Source of the DNA: Pacificibacter maritimus
GTDB taxonomy: Bacteria > Pseudomonadota > Alphaproteobacteria > Rhodobacterales > Rhodobacteraceae
Direction of reading: 5' to 3'
Length of the DNA: 64,000 nt
Assembly: GCF_003814915.1 (NCBI RefSeq)
Contig: NZ_RKQK01000001.1
Span: 698,031-762,030 of the forward strand
Positions 51,385 to 60,087 of this stretch are shown here, piece by piece (the first letter of the stretch is position 1; every line of letters begins with the position of its first letter). A program made the translations under genes and the position numbers. A model generated the notes under the pieces. It was not told where the DNA came from, searched no databases, and saw only the letters and a list, made by a program, of their open reading frames with translations.

Positions 51385-52278
51385 ATGAATCGTAGAGACA
51401 TTCTAAAACTTTCCACCGCAGCCGCAGCTGCTGCCCTGATCGCGCCCAAACTCTCATTTGCGGATGAAAACGGCCTCACTTGGACGCATTTCCCTGCTGG
51501 CGAAAACGGCTTTTACCGTGCGCCCGTTTTGATTGAAGGCGCAAACGAGGCCGTGCTGATCGACGGCGGCTTCACCCTGCCCGATGGTCGCGCCTTGGCC
51601 GAAGAAATCAAGGCGACAGGCAAAACGCTGACAACCATCTACATCAGCCAAAGCGATCCTGATTTCTATTTCAGCCTGCGCCCGATCGTCGAAGCCTTCC
51701 CCGAGGCCCGCGTCATCGCAGCCAGCGAGACAATCGCGGCCATCAACGCCAATGTGGCCAAAAAGGTCGAAACATGGGGGCCGCAACTTGGCGAAAACGG
51801 CCCTGCGACTGTGGCAGAGGTAATCATTCCCGAGGCCGACGACAGCACGACTTTGACAGTGGATGGCCACGACATCGAGATCGTTCCTGCTGATGGGCTG
51901 GCGAACCGTCGCTATCTTTGGGTCGAAGACCTACAGGCTGTGTTCGGTGGGGTTATGGTCTTTTCCGGCACCCATGTCTGGACTGCCGACACCCCCACCA
52001 AAGAACAGCGCGCTGCATGGATCGCCAACCTTGATGCTATCATCGCTCGCAATCCGAAGGTTGTCGTGCCTGGCCACATGACGCTGGACGCGCCGATGGG
52101 CCTTGCTGCGGTGGAATTCACCAAAGAGTATCTTCTGGCCATCGACGAAGAGCTGGCCACCGCCGAAACTGCGGCAGATCTGCACGCGGCGATGACAGCC
52201 CGTTACCCCGATTTGGGGATGAGCGTCGCATTGGATGTCGGCGCCAAGGTTCTCACCGGCGAGATGGAATGGGGCTGA
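51385..52278 (+). CDS. Exported metallo-beta-lactamase-fold protein with altered metal site
   Basis: 297 residues. The N-terminus MNRRDILKLSTAAAAAALIAP is a Tat-type signal (twin Arg at 3-4), cleaved near SFA-DE. The fold is that of MBL hydrolases, with LIEGANEAVLIDGG at 49-62, but the HxHxDH site reads Gln89-Ser-Asp91-Pro-Asp93-Phe94; only the Asp is kept. The last ligand His survives in VVPGHMTLDAP. Either a pseudoenzyme or a family with a different metal set. AAAGGACA precedes the ATG. Ends in a strong terminator. Confidence 0.8.
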   Translation: MNRRDILKLSTAAAAAALIAPKLSFADENGLTWTHFPAGENGFYRAPVLIEGANEAVLIDGGFTLPDGRALAEEIKATGKTLTTIYISQSDPDFYFSLRPIVEAFPEARVIAASETIAAINANVAKKVETWGPQLGENGPATVAEVIIPEADDSTTLTVDGHDIEIVPADGLANRRYLWVEDLQAVFGGVMVFSGTHVWTADTPTKEQRAAWIANLDAIIARNPKVVVPGHMTLDAPMGLAAVEFTKEYLLAIDEELATAETAADLHAAMTARYPDLGMSVALDVGAKVLTGEMEWG

Positions 52279-52447: not shown

Positions 52448-54379
52448 TTAATTCATTGTACTTGGGAGCCAAAGTGACAGGACTGGGAATGCGACCAAGA
52501 TAACGATTTTTACAAAGTCAGCGATCACAAAGGGCAGCACCCCACGCATGACAGTCCCGAGACCCTCCTCTGGATCAATGCTTTTGAGAATGAACAAGTT
52601 CATTCCAAATGGCGGCGTAATCATGCCTGTTTCAACCACAACAAGCATCAAAACGCCCCAAAACAGCATATCATAGCCCAAATCCAGAATAATCGGCGTC
52701 ACCACGGGCAAGGTTATGATCATCACGGCGAAACTATCCATAACTGACCCAAGGAGCAGGTAAATACAGATCAAGACCATCAGTATAACCACAGGTCGAG
52801 CATCAATGCTCGCGATCCATCCCGCAACAAGGTCGGGCGCGCCCGTCAGATTGACGCTAAAGGCAAAGATCAAGCCGCCAAAGACAAGCGCATAAATCAT
52901 TGCGACAGTCGTTGTGGTTTCTCCAAAAACAGACAAAAGACTTGCCCGCGTGAGCCGCCCGCGAAACAAGGCCAATGCAAAGGCCGCAACAGCGCCCACA
53001 GCTGCACTTTCTGTGACCGTAAACAGCCCCCCGTAGAGACCACCAATCACGATTGCGAACAGCCCCATGACAGGCAAGGCGGTGACAACTGCGTCCCAAA
53101 TTTCACGACCTGATGCGCCTGCGGATTTGGGGGCTGCCTCTGCATTAAGTGTTACAATGCAAAAGATAACTGCGAAATACAGCACCAAGGCAAGGATCGC
53201 TGGAAGCAATGCCGCAATAAACAGGGCGCCGATCGATTCTTGGGTGAGCAGAGCGAACAGAATGATGACGCCAGAAGGCGGCACCAAAGCCCCCAAGGTA
53301 CCGCCTGCTGCGACAGTGGCGGTGGACAGGGTTGGTGCATAGCCCAGCTTTTTCATTTCTGGCAAGGCCATGCGTCCAAATGTGGCCGAGGTCACAAGCG
53401 AGTTGCCCGAAACAGCGCCAAACCCTGCACAAGCTGCAACCGTTGCATAGGCAAGCCCTCCGCGAAAGCGCCCTAAAAGCGCATCCCCCAGACGGAACAG
53501 ATCAGACGAGATGCCCGAGATAACGGCAAAGGCGCCCATGATCAAAAACAATGGCAAAGTCGCGACCTGCGGGTTCAGCAAAAAGGTAATCGCTTCGCTG
53601 GTCATCGTGTCGACAGAGGCCGCTCCGCCGACAACTGGCATGGCTCCGACAACGCCCAACCCTGCGGTCACGGTTGCCAATGGCAATTGGGCAAAGACAC
53701 CGAGCCACAACAGGGCAAATCCGCACAACACGGCCGCGCTCGGATGCAGCAAAACAAAGTTCGTCACAGCCCCCATATTGGTGGCCATAAGAAAGCTCAG
53801 CATGCCCATGCTCACCGCCAAAATAGTTAAAAGTGCAATCACTGCGAGATGGGTTTTGCGCCCTTCCCGCCCGATGGCGCGGGCTTGTTGGACCGCGACA
53901 TAGATAGCCGTTATTTGCACAAGAGCGCCTGCAAACATCGCCAATGCAACAGCGAAGTAAACGGGATGCAGCGGCAACCGCAAGAGCATTGTAAAGCTGC
54001 CCTGCGCCACTTTTTGCAGCCCAATGCCCCATGCGCTGACCCCGATCACACCGAAGAACACAAGCAATGAAACCGCGCTGATCACATTCAACCATGCATT
54101 CACACGGGGGGATGTCAGATGGGCCAGCAGATCAAGTCGCAGGTTCACATTATACGCGGCCCCCGCGGGAATTGTCGCCGCAACAGCGATGGCGAAGACG
54201 ATGGATAATATTTCGTTCAAGGCAAAGATGGATTGCCCAAGGAGCCAACGCATAAGCACATCGACCACAATCGTCATCGCACCAAGCAAAACACTAGCGA
54301 TTGCGAGGATCGATATAACCCCAGTGACCCTGCGTGCGCGCTGCGCGACCACAGGGACAGACTGTGACGATGCAAACAT
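52448..54379 (-). CDS. TRAP transporter, fused small and large permease (DctQM)
   Basis: 643 residues from the ATG at 54379, which has GGAGAAG before it; an ATG at 54394 is in frame. The first four helices (to about residue 165) are DctQ-like, with LRWLLGQSIFALNEIL-type features. The rest is DctM, showing GGAASVDTMTSEAITFLLNP, FGAVSGNSLVTSATFGRMALPEM, GALVPPSGVIILFALLT and GMITPPFGMNLFIL. Imports substrates by Na+ gradient with the DctP protein encoded at 57959. A palindrome in its promoter matches one near the TetR/GH3 promoter. Confidence 0.93.
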   Translation of the reverse strand: MFASSQSVPVVAQRARRVTGVISILAIASVLLGAMTIVVDVLMRWLLGQSIFALNEILSIVFAIAVAATIPAGAAYNVNLRLDLLAHLTSPRVNAWLNVISAVSLLVFFGVIGVSAWGIGLQKVAQGSFTMLLRLPLHPVYFAVALAMFAGALVQITAIYVAVQQARAIGREGRKTHLAVIALLTILAVSMGMLSFLMATNMGAVTNFVLLHPSAAVLCGFALLWLGVFAQLPLATVTAGLGVVGAMPVVGGAASVDTMTSEAITFLLNPQVATLPLFLIMGAFAVISGISSDLFRLGDALLGRFRGGLAYATVAACAGFGAVSGNSLVTSATFGRMALPEMKKLGYAPTLSTATVAAGGTLGALVPPSGVIILFALLTQESIGALFIAALLPAILALVLYFAVIFCIVTLNAEAAPKSAGASGREIWDAVVTALPVMGLFAIVIGGLYGGLFTVTESAAVGAVAAFALALFRGRLTRASLLSVFGETTTTVAMIYALVFGGLIFAFSVNLTGAPDLVAGWIASIDARPVVILMVLICIYLLLGSVMDSFAVMIITLPVVTPIILDLGYDMLFWGVLMLVVVETGMITPPFGMNLFILKSIDPEEGLGTVMRGVLPFVIADFVKIVILVAFPVLSLWLPSTMN

Positions 54380-54403
54380 GTTTACTTCTCCCATTTAATT
54401 AGA

Positions 54404-54421
54404 TTACCAACTTATAGGTAA
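54404..54421. promoter_or_regulatory. Candidate TetR operator, site 1
   Basis: TTACCAACTTATAGGTAA, core ACCAACTTATAGGT at 54406-54419, followed by AATTAAT. Differs from site 2 at 56077 in only three of 25 bases. It lies in the spacer between the divergent TRAP permease and esterase genes. Confidence 0.65.
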
Positions 54422-54497
54422 ATTAATATTTGACGCAACAAATATGTGCATCTGCGGACTCTGCGCAGGCGCCATGACGTAGAAACGGACCCTGCAC

Positions 54498-55328
54498 GTG
54501 ACGAAATCAAAAGACGAAACACCGCGCGACGCGCGCCCGAAAATGGCAGTGCCGCAAGCTACAAAAGCCCCCGATCTTGAGAAGATCACGCTTGGCGAAG
54601 ACCAAGGCTCAGGCCAGATATGGGAAACCTTTATGGGGAACTTGATTGCCCGAAATGTGCAAACGGCGATCTTGTATCCGTTTCGTCCGCCACAAGATAA
54701 AGACAACGGAAAATCAGTCATCGTCTTGCCGGGTGGAGGATACAAATTCCTCTCGATGGAGCATGAGGGATTTAAGGCTGCACGCGCCCTTTGCGACCTA
54801 GGGTTCACCGCCTATGTCCTCGCTTATCGCACGGTGCCGACCGCTGTGTCATCCGATGCCTTTTTTGAGGATATGGTTGCGGGTTTCAAATTGCTTGGCA
54901 GTACGCCACCACCAGAAAACCCACTGGCAGTCACGGATCTGGACCATGCGATTGCAGCTGTGCGCGGATTAAACCGCAGCGCGCCCATTGGGGTTCTTGG
55001 CTTTTCTGCAGGGGCGCGTACGGCCATTCGTTGGCTTGAGCAATGCAGCTCAGACGCCGCCATTGAACAAGTGGCTTTGATCTATCCAGCTATGGCGAAA
55101 ATGCAAAACGTGGCGATTTCGCCAGACATTTTCGTCGCCATCGCGCAGGACGACCCTGTTTTTAAAGCCCATAGATTTGCGCTTATTGACGGATTGCTGA
55201 ACGCAGGTATCAGCGTCGACTTTCATCTGTTCGATAAAGGTGGGCACGGCTTTGGCATGTCCTCAACTGGCACCACCGCAAGCGCTTGGTTTGAGGCCTA
55301 TCAAAACTGGCTTTCGACACGTCCCTAA
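54498..55328 (+). CDS. Alpha/beta hydrolase, acetyl-esterase type
   Basis: 276 residues from a GTG at 54498; an ATG at 54543 is a possible later start. No signal peptide. Esterase features: SVIVLPGGGYKFLSMEHEG with the HGGG-like oxyanion hole, serine nucleophile in LGFSAGARTA, DDPVF with the Asp and GGHGFGM with the His. This order resembles BD-FAE/acetylxylan-esterase-like enzymes that act on acylated sugars. It is divergent from the TRAP permease and convergent with TetR, 16 bases apart. Probably part of the same regulon. Confidence 0.85.
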   Translation: MTKSKDETPRDARPKMAVPQATKAPDLEKITLGEDQGSGQIWETFMGNLIARNVQTAILYPFRPPQDKDNGKSVIVLPGGGYKFLSMEHEGFKAARALCDLGFTAYVLAYRTVPTAVSSDAFFEDMVAGFKLLGSTPPPENPLAVTDLDHAIAAVRGLNRSAPIGVLGFSAGARTAIRWLEQCSSDAAIEQVALIYPAMAKMQNVAISPDIFVAIAQDDPVFKAHRFALIDGLLNAGISVDFHLFDKGGHGFGMSSTGTTASAWFEAYQNWLSTRP

Positions 55329-55344
55329 AAGGGTGCCGCCCCCG

Positions 55345-55962
55345 TCATGGGACCAAAAGCCGTTGTTTTGTTTGCTCAAGAAAGACGTCAAAAATAGACT
55401 TGGCCCGACAGGTGTCAGGCATGCGGGTCCACCAAAGCTGCAAGCCCTCCATCATCGCAAGGATCGAGATTGCTTCGTCTTGACAATCGACATCACTGCG
55501 GATGATGCCTTGGCGTTGCAAACTGCTTAGATCTGTAGACAGCGATGACAGGATTTTCTCGTTCCTCAGCTTGAACCACGCGTGGGCGGGATGCGTATCT
55601 GACTGTGCCTCGGCTGAGAGCATTCTGAAAAGCTGTGTCATTTGCGCCCCGACAGTCAAATCACGCGCCATAAGCTGTGCCAGCGTTTCGAAAATCTTAT
55701 GCGGATCACGATCAGGGTTTTGGCTGAACATCTCAGCGTCACGATCTTCGAGAACGGCCAAAAGCAAGCCAATTTTGCTTGGGAAATAGTGGGTCAGACC
55801 TGGAAGTGTCATGCCCACCGCAGTGGCGACGGACGCAAATGAGGTTTTATTGAATCCCTGCATTGCGAACAGCTTCGCAGCTTCTGACAGGATGCGCGCA
55901 ATCTTTGCATCGGCGTCATCTGCGCGGGGGCGCCCACGTGCTCTTTTTGATTGCGATGCCAT
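55345..55962 (-). CDS. TetR/AcrR-family transcriptional regulator
   Basis: 205 residues. The N-terminal HTH reads KIARILSEAAKLFAMQGFNKTSFASVATAVGMTLPGLTHYFPSKIGLLLAVL, a textbook TetR DNA-binding region. An effector domain of about 150 residues follows. Its 196-base spacer to the divergent GH3 gene contains the palindrome at 56077, and the same motif lies upstream of the TRAP permease. Local control of both promoters is the simplest reading. The basic N-terminal leader SKRARGRPRADD may add DNA contacts. Confidence 0.92.
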   Translation of the reverse strand: MASQSKRARGRPRADDADAKIARILSEAAKLFAMQGFNKTSFASVATAVGMTLPGLTHYFPSKIGLLLAVLEDRDAEMFSQNPDRDPHKIFETLAQLMARDLTVGAQMTQLFRMLSAEAQSDTHPAHAWFKLRNEKILSSLSTDLSSLQRQGIIRSDVDCQDEAISILAMMEGLQLWWTRMPDTCRAKSIFDVFLEQTKQRLLVP

Positions 55963-56074
55963 GTCTGCCCGTTCCCTTGCTGTCGTTTCAAGAGTTTATC
56001 ATCAAACGTCGCTGCACATCCAGAGCGATTCAGAGGTTTCGCCGAAGAGCTTCAAAACGGGTCTTGTATTTAAA

Positions 56075-56092
56075 TTACCTACTGATAGGTTA
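56075..56092. promoter_or_regulatory. Candidate TetR operator, site 2
   Basis: TTACCTACTGATAGGTTA, core ACCTACTGATAGGT at 56077-56090, followed by AATTAAT. It lies in the divergent TetR/GH3 spacer, 113 bases from the TetR start and 67 from the GH3 start. Confidence 0.65.
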
Positions 56093-56158
56093 ATTAATTA
56101 TCACAACTTGAGACGCCCCATTATGTGAGCGGCTTTGACACATTCAGAAAGGCACTTC

Positions 56159-57859
56159 ATGCACGACACCCTCATCGCAGGTTTTGCACAGCCACCATTC
56201 TCGCTAGATCAATCCGCGCAAAAATGGGTGACAGACACGTTCGAAACCTTGCAGAACGTCCAAAAGGCACGGTTGTTGTTCTCGCAAATGACGATGGGCC
56301 CAGTGCTTGATCTTGAAGAACTCGCCGCCGTACAGCCAGGGTTCATTACCCGTATGGGCAGCGGAGAGGCCGAAGATGAGTTGCAGCAACTTGAGAAACT
56401 GAATGCGCTCTTGGATATCCCTGTTGGCTATTGCGCTGATCTCGAAGGGTCGATGACCGTCCAAAGCGGATCAACGCCTGCACCCAACCCTATGGCGCTG
56501 GCTGCTGCGAACGATCCCGCGCTGACAAAAAGGGCTGTGCGCGCTTTGGCCAGTGAGGCACGCGGCTTCGGTATCCGCTGGAGTTTCACCCCTGCGATTG
56601 ATCTGAACATTGCGTTTCGCTCTGCCGTTGTTGGCACCCGCAGCTACGGATCAGATCAAGAGACGGTCCAAGCCCAAGGCTTGGCGACACTTGCGGGGCT
56701 GACAGAAGCAGGCATTGCCGCCACCGTGAAACACTGGCCAGGCGAGGCAACAGACCAGCGTGACCAGCACCTTGTTACAACGATCAACGATCTTAGCTTT
56801 GCCGACTGGCAAGCCTCTTTTGGCACCATGTACCGCGCGGCGATTGATGCAGGCGCAATGACTGTGATGTCCGCGCATATCGCCTTGCCGTCCTATATGA
56901 AGGATGTGGTCGGCGTGTCAGGGCCAGAGGCCTTTTTGCCAGCATCACTCAATGTCCACTTGAACGAAGGCCTGCTGCGCGACACGTTGGGATTTAAAGG
57001 TCTGATCGTATCGGACGCGACCCCGATGGCTGGCATGTCTGGGGTATACCCGCGCAGCGAACTGGTGGTGAACGCGTTGATGGCAGGCTGTGATGTGCTT
57101 CTTGGCGCACAGGGGCTGGAACAAGATGCCGATTTTATTCTTGCTGGTTTGGCCGATGGTCGCGTCACCCAAGACCGTTTGGACACTGCGATTTTGCGTC
57201 AGCTTGCGATGAAGGCAGCGCTTGGGTTGCACATCCGGCCCAATGCAGGTGCGCCCGAACAGATCGACACCCAACCCATTCACGAGGTGATGAAAAAGGC
57301 GCCCACACTGGTCAAGGCCCGTGACGGCCTGCTTCCGATCACACCTGAGCGTTATAAGCGGATCTACGTGGTCTCACGCGGGGTCGGGTTTCCGCCCGCA
57401 TCCTCCACAGAGCCCCTGCCCCTCGCCTTCAAAGGCATGATGAAAGAGGCTGGCTTTGAGGTTGTTGAACACATATGGGGCACGCCCGTCGATCCAACAG
57501 GATGCGATCTGTTGCTTTATGTTTACGCGGAAGAAACCTTGTTAACGCGTGGCACGATCACCAATGAATGGGGCGCGATGAACGGCAATTTCGTATCCGC
57601 CATGTCACGCCATTGGCACGATACGCCGACATTTATGATTTCGTTTGGCTGGCCCTATCACATGTACGAAGCCCCTGGCGTTTGGGGCTATGCCAACGCC
57701 TACATGAGCCATCCAGCCATGCAATCGATTATGCTCGACGCGATGATGGGCAAGCAGGCGTTTGAAGGCACCTCGCCCATCGATCCGTTTTGCGGAATCG
57801 ATCCCGACTATTTCGATTTGCCCATTGGCAATAGAAAACATGCGAAATCAAGACTTTAG
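56159..57859 (+). CDS. Glycoside hydrolase family 3
   Basis: 566 residues from the ATG at 56159 (AAAGG upstream; a TTG at 56135 is unlikely). No signal peptide, so the enzyme is cytoplasmic. The TIM barrel shows Lys191-His192 (VKHWPGEATDQRDQH) and the nucleophile Asp286 in GLIVSDATPM, and is followed by a second alpha/beta domain. The KH-x-D-H arrangement and the SDA context resemble beta-N-acetylhexosaminidase/beta-glucosidase-like members, but specificity cannot be read from sequence. It precedes the DctP gene by 100 bases on the same strand: imported substrate would meet it in the cytosol. Confidence 0.88.
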   Translation: MHDTLIAGFAQPPFSLDQSAQKWVTDTFETLQNVQKARLLFSQMTMGPVLDLEELAAVQPGFITRMGSGEAEDELQQLEKLNALLDIPVGYCADLEGSMTVQSGSTPAPNPMALAAANDPALTKRAVRALASEARGFGIRWSFTPAIDLNIAFRSAVVGTRSYGSDQETVQAQGLATLAGLTEAGIAATVKHWPGEATDQRDQHLVTTINDLSFADWQASFGTMYRAAIDAGAMTVMSAHIALPSYMKDVVGVSGPEAFLPASLNVHLNEGLLRDTLGFKGLIVSDATPMAGMSGVYPRSELVVNALMAGCDVLLGAQGLEQDADFILAGLADGRVTQDRLDTAILRQLAMKAALGLHIRPNAGAPEQIDTQPIHEVMKKAPTLVKARDGLLPITPERYKRIYVVSRGVGFPPASSTEPLPLAFKGMMKEAGFEVVEHIWGTPVDPTGCDLLLYVYAEETLLTRGTITNEWGAMNGNFVSAMSRHWHDTPTFMISFGWPYHMYEAPGVWGYANAYMSHPAMQSIMLDAMMGKQAFEGTSPIDPFCGIDPDYFDLPIGNRKHAKSRL

Positions 57860-57870
57860 AAACGAAGGCC

Positions 57871-57894
57871 ATGGCCCAAAAGCTTGCGGGCCAT
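57871..57894 (+). promoter_or_regulatory. Hairpin between GH3 and dctP genes
   Basis: ATGGCCC and GGGCCAT form a seven-pair stem around a 10-base loop in the 99-base spacer, with no T tract. It could stabilise the upstream or downstream mRNA segment, as is common where a binding protein must be made in excess. Confidence 0.4.
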
Positions 57895-57958
57895 GCCATC
57901 CACCAGCCGGACATAAAAACAACGATCTGGCCATTTAAACCGCACTTGGGAGGAAACC

Positions 57959-58969
57959 ATGCGATCCGAGATGAAACTGACGACCTTAGCGGCTTTGACA
58001 GCGCTCACAACAACCACAGCAACCGCAGAAACGCTGATTTTTGGGACAGGAAACCCCGCTGGCGGCGTCGCGAATGAATACCTGTTGCAACCTTGGATCG
58101 ACAAGGTTCAAGCGGAAAGTGGTGATGCGCTGACACTTGTGCAGCGTGACGGCCCTGCGCTTGTCAATTCCGTGAATGCGCCTGAACGCGTTGCCAATAA
58201 CATTGTTCAAATCTCATGGACGATGACTGTGTTTGATCCGGGCCGTTTTACCAAATCACTTGTGGCCACCACCCCGTTTTTCGATGTCTCTGCTTCAGCG
58301 GCTACGGGCGTGTTCTGCCAGATGTACGAAGAAGGTCTGTTTGGCGACGAATACGATGCATTCCAACCGCTGTATTTCATCCCCTTCCCACAGAACTATA
58401 TCCACACCAAAGAAGGCCCGCTCAACTCTCTTGAGGATCTCGCTGGCAAAAAAATTATGGTCGAAAGCCCACCTGCGGCTGAACTGATCGGTGGGTTTGG
58501 CGCGACACCTCTTTCAATCAACCTATTGGATCAATATCAGGCGCTGCAACGCAACACGGCTGACGGCACTGTTATTACTTACACAGCACTTCCAGCGTTC
58601 AAACTGGACGAAGTGACAAACTACCACCTTGAGTTCCCGCTTGGCAGTGCCATGGGCATGGTCTTCATGGATAAGGCGCGCTACGACGCCTTGTCGGATG
58701 AAGCAAAAGCCGTGCTTGACGCCAATTCGGGCTGTGACGTCAGCCGCGAAGCGGGCGCACGTGTTGATGAATGGGCCGACAGCGTTCGCGTATCGCTTGA
58801 AGATGCAGGACACAGCGTGGTTGCAACCCCAGCGGAAGACGTAGCAGCGCTTCGCGAAAAATTCTTGCAGCCAAGCGTTGAAATGTTTGCGCAATTTGTT
58901 GAAGGCGGCGCACCTATCATCGAACGTTGGGTTGAGCTGAGCATGGAAGCGGAAGCCGCTGAAAAGTAA
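57959..58969 (+). CDS. TRAP transporter substrate-binding protein (DctP family)
   Basis: 336 residues. GGGAGGAAACC precedes the ATG; a signal peptide covers residues 1-23 (cut before ETLIFG). DctP fold landmarks: DLAGKKIMVESPPAAELIGGFGATPLSIN, then WEFTYYPS-type middle replaced by LDEVTNYHLEFPLGSAMGMVFM. In carboxylate-binding relatives such as SiaP the first landmark holds an Arg that binds the substrate carboxylate; here the position is Met167. The ligand may therefore be uncharged. Partner of the DctQM permease at 52448. Confidence 0.9.
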   Translation: MRSEMKLTTLAALTALTTTTATAETLIFGTGNPAGGVANEYLLQPWIDKVQAESGDALTLVQRDGPALVNSVNAPERVANNIVQISWTMTVFDPGRFTKSLVATTPFFDVSASAATGVFCQMYEEGLFGDEYDAFQPLYFIPFPQNYIHTKEGPLNSLEDLAGKKIMVESPPAAELIGGFGATPLSINLLDQYQALQRNTADGTVITYTALPAFKLDEVTNYHLEFPLGSAMGMVFMDKARYDALSDEAKAVLDANSGCDVSREAGARVDEWADSVRVSLEDAGHSVVATPAEDVAALREKFLQPSVEMFAQFVEGGAPIIERWVELSMEAEAAEK

Positions 58970-59021: not shown

Positions 59022-59451
59022 CCGCGATATCTGTCATGGGGCAACAAGATGTCCAAATCTAAAACCGATTTATGGACAAGCGGGATCATTGGGCGCAGGC
59101 TTCCCAGCAGGCGACATGATGCAATCTCCAAACCACAGTGCGCCTGCATTGCCTTTTGGCACGCACAGTACTCAGAAAGCACAAAGCGCGCCTATTGATC
59201 AGCTAAAGCATCCCAGTGTGGCGCCCAATAGGCCGAGGCCTCCCCAACTCATCCCTTACGCCTCAGGCGCTTTATGGTTTTTACAAATCAGTGGTCTTTT
59301 AATCCCTGTCCCGTATCGGTCCAATTCACTAAGACGTGTTGTGTCAACAAGTGACTTAGATGTTCAAAAATTGTACATTTGCGCAATCACCCGACGGAAA
59401 CTTGGGGGTCGCACGTTGAACCTATACTTGAAACGACCAAAGAGCATCTCA
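59022..59451. other. 430-base spacer before the dioxygenase gene
   Basis: I see no conserved coding frame, RNA or repeat here. An open frame running through it into the dioxygenase has no protein-like conserved segment before the Tat signal. Confidence 0.4.
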
Positions 59452-60087
59452 ATGACCAATTCTAATTTCACGCGTCGTGGTATCCTTGCTTGGGCCCTAG
59501 GCGCTTTGGGCCTGTCGGCTGCTGGACGCTCAGCACTTGCAGCCGCACCTACGCCATCCGCAACCGAAGGCCCCTTTTACCCCACTCAGCCCATGCGCAG
59601 GGCTGATGTCGACAATGATTTGGTTAAGATCATGGGTAAGGTTCATGAAGCTGGTGGCGAGGTTTTTACACTTAGAGGCCGCGTGATGGATGCAGATGGC
59701 CAACCGCTCAACGGCATGCGGATCGAGATTTGGCAATGCGACATGAACGGTAAATATCTGCACCCTGGAGACAGTCAAAACATCGACTTTGATGCGGCTT
59801 TTCAAGGCTTCGGCCATGACATCACTGGCACGGATGGGTCTTACGAATTTCGCACAATTAAGCCTGTGACCTACCCTGGCCGCACGCCTCACATACACGT
59901 CAAGGTCTTTGACGGCGAGACAGAAATCTTGACCAGTCAGTTCTATATCGACGGGCATCCAGCAAACGATCGTGACCGAATTTTTGGCAGGCTTTCACAA
60001 AGCGAAGCGAAAGCTGTGTCGATGGTTTTCACCCAAGTTGAAGATCGAACAGAAGCGCAAGTCGATGTTATCCTGCCCACTGCCTAA
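59452..60087 (+). CDS. Tat-exported intradiol ring-cleavage dioxygenase
   Basis: 211 residues. Start MTNSNFTRRGILAWALGALGL is a Tat signal (Arg8-Arg9), cut around residue 30. The domain matches protocatechuate/hydroxyquinol intradiol dioxygenases: EGPFYP at 39-44 and a likely Fe(III) ligand set Tyr102, Tyr141, His147 and His149 in YPGRTPHIHV. A conserved Arg144 is also present. Cytosolic family members cleave catechols to muconates; exported ones have been linked to extracytoplasmic aromatics. The gene stands alone, convergent with an esterase-like hydrolase. Confidence 0.87.
   Translation: MTNSNFTRRGILAWALGALGLSAAGRSALAAAPTPSATEGPFYPTQPMRRADVDNDLVKIMGKVHEAGGEVFTLRGRVMDADGQPLNGMRIEIWQCDMNGKYLHPGDSQNIDFDAAFQGFGHDITGTDGSYEFRTIKPVTYPGRTPHIHVKVFDGETEILTSQFYIDGHPANDRDRIFGRLSQSEAKAVSMVFTQVEDRTEAQVDVILPTA

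Follow-up and report, generated by a model that had tools for sequence, protein, structure and literature searches.

A possible TetR-controlled TRAP route for neutral beta-glycosides beside a BglX-like GH3 enzyme in Pacificibacter maritimus

Five genes and two near-identical palindromes

We analysed a 64,000-nucleotide stretch of the Pacificibacter maritimus contig NZ_RKQK01000001.1 (positions 698,031 to 762,030; hereafter the window, numbered from its first letter), in which a tripartite ATP-independent periplasmic (TRAP) transporter lies among genes for a glycoside hydrolase family 3 (GH3) enzyme, an esterase and a TetR-family regulator (Table 1). A preliminary description, made from the letters of this DNA, had placed a TRAP permease, a DctP binding protein, a GH3 glycosidase, an acyl-sugar-type esterase and a TetR regulator together, and open reading frames (ORFs) and Pfam matches bore out this content and the five-gene order. 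DctP, DctQ and DctM all scored over their Pfam gathering scores, as expected of a DctP-type TRAP transporter, and the permease reached 273.7 bits against TIGR00786, above the cut-off of 268.45. Its first ATG lies at 54394; by eye, a better Shine-Dalgarno sequence precedes the ATG at 54379. For GH3 we chose the ATG at 56159, the program-made ORF list beginning at a TTG at 56135. GH3 and DctP are encoded on the same strand with a 99-base gap, which holds a terminator-like stem-loop; the whole stretch contains 11 terminator-like matches, against 5.2 in shuffles. By eye, the N-termini of GH3 and the esterase show no signal peptide and DctP carries an N-terminal signal.

Table 1. Positions of the genes and putative regulatory elements in the window
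Feature	Position	Strand	Details
Fused TRAP permease, DctQ and DctM	52448-54394	-	648 aa; Pfam DctM E 1.4e-74, DctQ E 1.4e-13
Site 1, ATTACCAACTTATAGGTAAATTAAT	54403-54427		divergent permease/esterase region; putative TetR operator
Alpha/beta hydrolase (esterase)	54498-55328	+	GTG start; Pfam DLH E 5e-6
TetR-family regulator	55345-55962	-	205 aa; Pfam TetR_N E 4.8e-11
Site 2, ATTACCTACTGATAGGTTAATTAAT	56074-56098		divergent TetR/GH3 region; putative TetR operator
GH3 enzyme	56159-57859	+	566 aa; Pfam PF00933 E 1e-49
Stem-loop in the GH3-DctP gap	57870-57895		9 pairs, loop of 8; terminator-like match on the - strand
DctP-type TRAP solute-binding protein	57959-58969	+	336 aa; Pfam DctP E 6.5e-19

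The two divergent intergenic regions carry the nearly identical palindromes, each followed by AATTAAT, that had been noticed before, and the likeness was found to extend over 25 bases, of which 22 are identical between sites 1 and 2; this is the best 25-base match between both regions. The 14-base cores are ACCAACTTATAGGT at 54406-54419 and ACCTACTGATAGGT at 56077-56090. At site 2 this core forms a perfect inverted repeat with five-base arms and a four-base spacer (ACCTA-N4-TAGGT), from which site 1 departs by one arm mismatch. Symmetry beyond the core is modest, with 14 of 23 positions matching the reverse complement at site 2 and 10 of 23 at site 1. A search with ACCNACTNATAGGT at no more than one mismatch gave two matches in the window, against a shuffle mean of 0.09, and none of 100 shuffles contained two. 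In the whole 3.08 Mb genome the exact degenerate 14-mer occurred at these two places only; a reversed-letter control also gave two, and on this scale the 14-mer by itself is therefore unremarkable. The 25-mer ATTACCWACTKATAGGTWAATTAAT, with up to three mismatches, was confined to the two sites in that genome, with no match to a control pattern. Moreover, a match of at least 20 of 25 between the intergenic regions arose in none of 2000 dinucleotide shuffles, and when 1981 pairs of segments of matching sizes were drawn at random from the window, one pair reached 20 of 25 and none scored higher. A sigma-70-like promoter was found at neither site (one match in a scan of the whole stretch, 2.9 in shuffles).

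These counts support the two sites as a statistically real local pair, at the positions expected for a single local regulator. The permease and DctP genes point in opposite directions, their starts lying about 3.6 kb from each other, and the 25-mer lies ahead of both, the first copy before the permease and the second before GH3, upstream of DctP. Such a shared site before both transporter halves is the strongest sequence argument for co-regulation, and we infer that the TetR protein binds both palindromes.

A binding protein without the selectivity arginine and a BglX-like enzyme

The selectivity arginine of TRAP solute-binding proteins lies in the sixth strand and is present in 96.8% of 6,142 sequences (PMC5812351). 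In the window DctP the residue aligned with it, corresponding to SiaP Arg147, is Met167, a departure from the canonical carboxylate TRAP type; the equivalence was drawn from alignment and strand position, SiaP not being among the aligned sequences. Five HMMER alignments to solved structures agreed in placing an arginine opposite Met167, and in the predicted model (pLDDT 90.7) M167 falls in the sixth strand, residues 165-167. In a MAFFT alignment of 33 DctP rows (the window protein and 32 others), 25 had arginine in this column and eight did not, with methionine in five and alanine, isoleucine and serine in one each. These eight rows (L044-L048, L080, L082 and the window DctP) formed one side of a branch with support 100/99, in a tree rooted at its midpoint for drawing only. 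The missing arginine argues against an ordinary carboxylate substrate and weakens the assignment to a plain organic-acid TRAP transporter. The earlier remark that pairing a TRAP carrier with a glycosidase would be notable gains substance from it.

By sequence and fold, the top matches to DctP were TarP_Csal (7nsw, 7ntd, 7nte and 7nrr), TarP_Sse (7nr2 and 7nra), 5i5p/5i7i, 5iga/5izz and 5im2. The ligands of TarP are documented in PMC3610893, and 5i5p/5i7i and 5iga/5izz are marine-metagenome aromatic-acid TRAP binding proteins beside the TarP-type ones. Unlike the window DctP, the aromatic-acid binding proteins 5i5p, 5iga, 5im2, 7nsw and 7nrr have the arginine. Csal_0678 (ethanolamine) and a Treponema protein resemble it in having no equivalent of SiaP Arg147, and for these a non-carboxylate or hydrophobic ligand has been reported or proposed (PMC4646407, PMC5812351); in the fold comparison the Csal_0678 structures ranked only 37 and 42. 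Several members of the arginine-less clade are linked to apparent aromatic-catabolism genes. Proteins of this clade might serve to import neutral phenols or cyclic compounds.

The best PDB match of the GH3 protein was the beta-glucoside phosphorylase BglX (5vqd; BglP in the review PMC8950772), which matched over the full length with an E-value of 3.3e-75, the next best being 4.4e-41. Similarly, Foldseek ranked 5vqd first (TM 0.81), with 31% identity in the fold alignment; a phosphorylase role of the window enzyme is putative. Both share the KH.PG...RDQH motif and the nucleophile stretch. The His/Asp dyad of BglX/Nag3-kind phosphorylases is present as D202-Q-H204, in a loop (194-207) modelled with pLDDT below 50 (mean 80.3), and D202-x-H204 and the nucleophile D286 occurred in all 28 aligned GH3 rows, 25 of them from relatives and three covering all or part of the window gene. 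Two GH3 phosphorylases have been characterised, and the dyad has been linked to phosphorylase activity (PMC8950772). Because it is BglX-like and has this dyad, the window enzyme may be a phosphorylase, or else a hydrolase. The previous call of a GH3 glycosidase was right as to the Pfam family, but a BglX-like enzyme carrying a His/Asp dyad is the more fitting description. We name it no further than that, since some GH3 N-acetylglucosaminidases have been reported without phosphorylase activity (PMC6572805 and PMC6987092) and the genome has no TIGR02009 match over the cut-off, as detailed below. A plain beta-glucosidase label was replaced on the strength of the PDB and fold matches, and an N-acetylhexosaminidase label was rejected (NF003740, 104 bits, cut-off 207).

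Of the acyl-sugar type first assigned to the esterase, a weak resemblance remained: it scored 56 bits against PaeX (cut-off 550) and 48 against AxeA1 (cut-off 700), far below both. Its PDB matches (7dwc, 4q3k) were weak, and the likely catalytic residues, read from motifs, are Ser170, Asp219 and His250. Relatives of the esterase were found in 2 of 285 genomes at E<=1e-15, its own included, the second (G273) at 35% identity.

Related loci in other genomes

GH3 relatives were present in 13 of 295 family genomes (E<=1e-30) and in 2 of 20 genomes of the genus, the own genome included in both counts. Further relatives came from 16 contig loci, 13 of them titled Devosia, and from 54 plasmid records, these last all below 60% identity; the contig scan, based on the patterns of a single protein, reaches close relatives only. 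The 35 GH3 loci compared here comprise 11 of the 12 non-own family genomes, the 16 contig loci, 7 of the 54 plasmid records and one genus locus, with flanks reaching about 7-9 kb at most, as for the DctP loci below. Genes farther out would be missed, four of the loci (L022, L024, L035 and L042) are short at a contig end, and L016 and L017, which differ at 20 residues, should not be counted as independent. Alignment rows were left out when they matched less than 60% of the query length, were identical or contained copies, or ran past a stop codon (four GH3 rows, which are two genes each present twice); L015 is a fragment.

Like the window, alphaproteobacterial loci of this kind place a cytoplasmic GH3 of the same subfamily by an importer, with an esterase at the 60% relative. 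They differ in that the recognised importers are of the ABC or MFS type, not TRAP, and the regulators are others. The 60% relative (G042, the only genome of its genus) is the closest. By eye, it lies with sugar-ABC-like and GH78-like genes, to which Pfam adds a BD-FAE esterase. Among the seven annotated plasmid loci, three have carbohydrate ABC genes, three other or unspecified ABC genes and one MFS/TonB genes. By analogy, the TRAP system would occupy the place held by an ABC importer at other GH3 loci. A second GH3 protein in the genus (G296, 38% identity) is accompanied by a TctC-like binding protein and sugar-ABC-like genes (by eye), with no DctP or DctM; the TctC-like protein (L100, 6047-7030) has no TctA or TctB among the nearby ORFs (by eye). 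In two Neorhizobium loci (L091 and L096) a BglX-like GH3 gene adjoins formylglycine-generating enzyme genes, joined in L091 by a sulfatase-like gene, and these neighbourhoods might concern sulfated glycosides.

DctP relatives at E<=1e-30 were found in 47 of 290 family genomes, the own genome included, with identities of 42-52% in five other genomes and in a paralogue of the own genome. Nine loci were compared, namely the six of this set, two weaker relatives and one plasmid, and all nine contained DctP and a permease match. A VOC gene was present in six (by Pfam in L076, by annotation in L095 and by a shared N-terminus seen by eye in L074, L075, L077 and L078), L080 and L081 being left out of this count. 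Moreover, a cyclase was recognised by eye in L079, together with an epimerase; L074 has an FAD monooxygenase and a cyclase, and L076 an FAA hydrolase (Pfam). The paralogue locus of the own genome (L082, G000:C1:1328643-1329623, and L074) encodes a second arginine-less DctP (49%) and a fused permease (62%) beside genes recognised by Pfam as a cyclase and an FAD monooxygenase and by eye as VOC and LysR genes.

The preliminary description had suggested looking for conserved TetR/GH3/TRAP synteny and for the palindrome in other genomes, and neither was encountered. A TRAP-GH3 module was seen in none of the 35 GH3 loci and none of the nine DctP loci, and the GH3 loci matched none of the others among nine window genes (tblastn, E<=1e-3). 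TetR relatives were limited to the own genome, 1 of 290 family genomes (E<=1e-20) and 1 of 385 class genomes (E<=1e-15). The motif, at no more than one mismatch, was absent from all 44 loci. Because the TetR/GH3/TRAP/esterase pairing was seen in the own genome only, the cluster looks like a local assembly, and conservation lends the pairing no support.

A candidate mechanism and its alternatives

Our tentative reading, which we place a little below an even chance, is that the locus serves, under TetR control, to take up a neutral beta-glycoside, which may be acylated or aryl, and to cleave it inside the cell. In the order of steps that we infer, TetR would act at the paired palindromes to repress both divergent promoter regions, site 1 serving the permease and the esterase and site 2 serving GH3-DctP and tetR itself. 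With an inducer present, DctP would capture the neutral beta-glycoside in the periplasm without the usual carboxylate clamp, the fused DctQ-DctM permease would import it, the esterase would strip its acyl groups and GH3 would finally cleave the glycoside, hydrolytically or phosphorolytically, within the cytoplasm. Our leading guess for the ligand is a beta-glycoside of the aryl or acylated type, because the kin of the binding protein and its nearest structures are tied to aromatic compounds. The arginine-less binding protein, the adjoining cytoplasmic GH3 and possible acyl-sugar esterase, and the one paired site point the same way: a TRAP system, a type normally for organic acids, that lacks the acid-gripping residue and lies beside sugar-cleaving genes may import an uncharged glycoside. 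That TRAP import of a neutral (acylated or aryl) beta-glycoside, an arginine-less binding protein, cytoplasmic phosphorolysis and a dedicated TetR are all combined here seems rather unlikely. Among the titles and abstract openings listed, none described a TRAP-glycosidase pair; most subscription papers lay outside the search, which is no proof of absence. An arginine-less clade with one member by a glycoside-cleaving enzyme offers a direct test of neutral glycoside uptake by TRAP, and such uptake, if true, would change the annotation of these genes.

Several findings weigh against this reading. DctM and DctP genes occurred in none of the 35 GH3 loci (profile hidden Markov models, E<=1e-5; made from relatives of the window genes, these profiles could miss a TRAP type that is very distant), and a GH3, TetR or esterase match occurred in none of the nine DctP loci (E<=1e-3). 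A DctP relative at E<=1e-40 was found in 1 of 20 genus genomes, the own one. The closest DctP kin, including the 49% paralogue of the own genome, appear to lie among aromatic-catabolism genes without GH3, and the closest solved structures, by sequence and by Foldseek with the predicted fold, are aromatic-acid binding proteins. The end branch of the window DctP counts in favour of the reading, at 0.97 compared with 0.18-0.56 for its six nearest rows, but long branches occur elsewhere too (0.98 for L080 in the same clade, 1.03-1.09 in three arginine-type rows), and its length is not peculiar. As to phosphorolysis to beta-glucose-1-phosphate, no protein of the genome passed TIGR02009 (beta-phosphoglucomutase-like), the sole family searched for this step: the best score was 91.9 bits against a cut-off of 153.35, which was passed in 4 of 14 control genomes.

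In the main rival reading, the TRAP system would import a neutral phenolic or cyclic compound like its kin, with GH3, the esterase and TetR as unlinked neighbours that only happen to separate the permease gene from dctP. Neighbours of the DctP and permease kin include VOC, FAD monooxygenase, FAA hydrolase, cyclase and LysR genes but, in the nine loci, no GH3, and the window itself has an intradiol dioxygenase-like gene downstream of DctP. However, one 25-mer precedes both the permease and GH3-DctP and occurs nowhere else in the genome, and GH3 and DctP are only 99 bases apart on one strand; we consider this rival unlikely. Less probable again is an acidic glycoside, whose carboxylate (in an aromatic acid glycoside or a uronic-acid sugar) would be held by other DctP residues. 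The aromatic-acid proteins among the closest structures fit such a ligand, as does the report that TRAP ligands are mostly carboxylates (PMC4646407), but the selectivity arginine is replaced by methionine and an earlier second arginine position (that of IseP, mapped by spacing) is occupied by asparagine, a position that does not discriminate because arginine was present there in none of the 33 rows. Finally, another regulator might be the one that binds the palindromes, leaving TetR to control other targets or only its own gene. This is improbable, since the sites are unique to this place and one lies directly upstream of tetR, even with no related TetR available for comparison and the motif missing from related loci.

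Two further genes flank the cluster. Positions 51385-52278 encode a Vmh-like MBL-fold protein with a twin-arginine translocation (Tat) signal match, at 278 bits below the NCBIfam cut-off of 430. Downstream of DctP, positions 59449-60087 encode the intradiol (protocatechuate 3,4-) dioxygenase-like protein, which has a Tat-like N-terminus (by eye).

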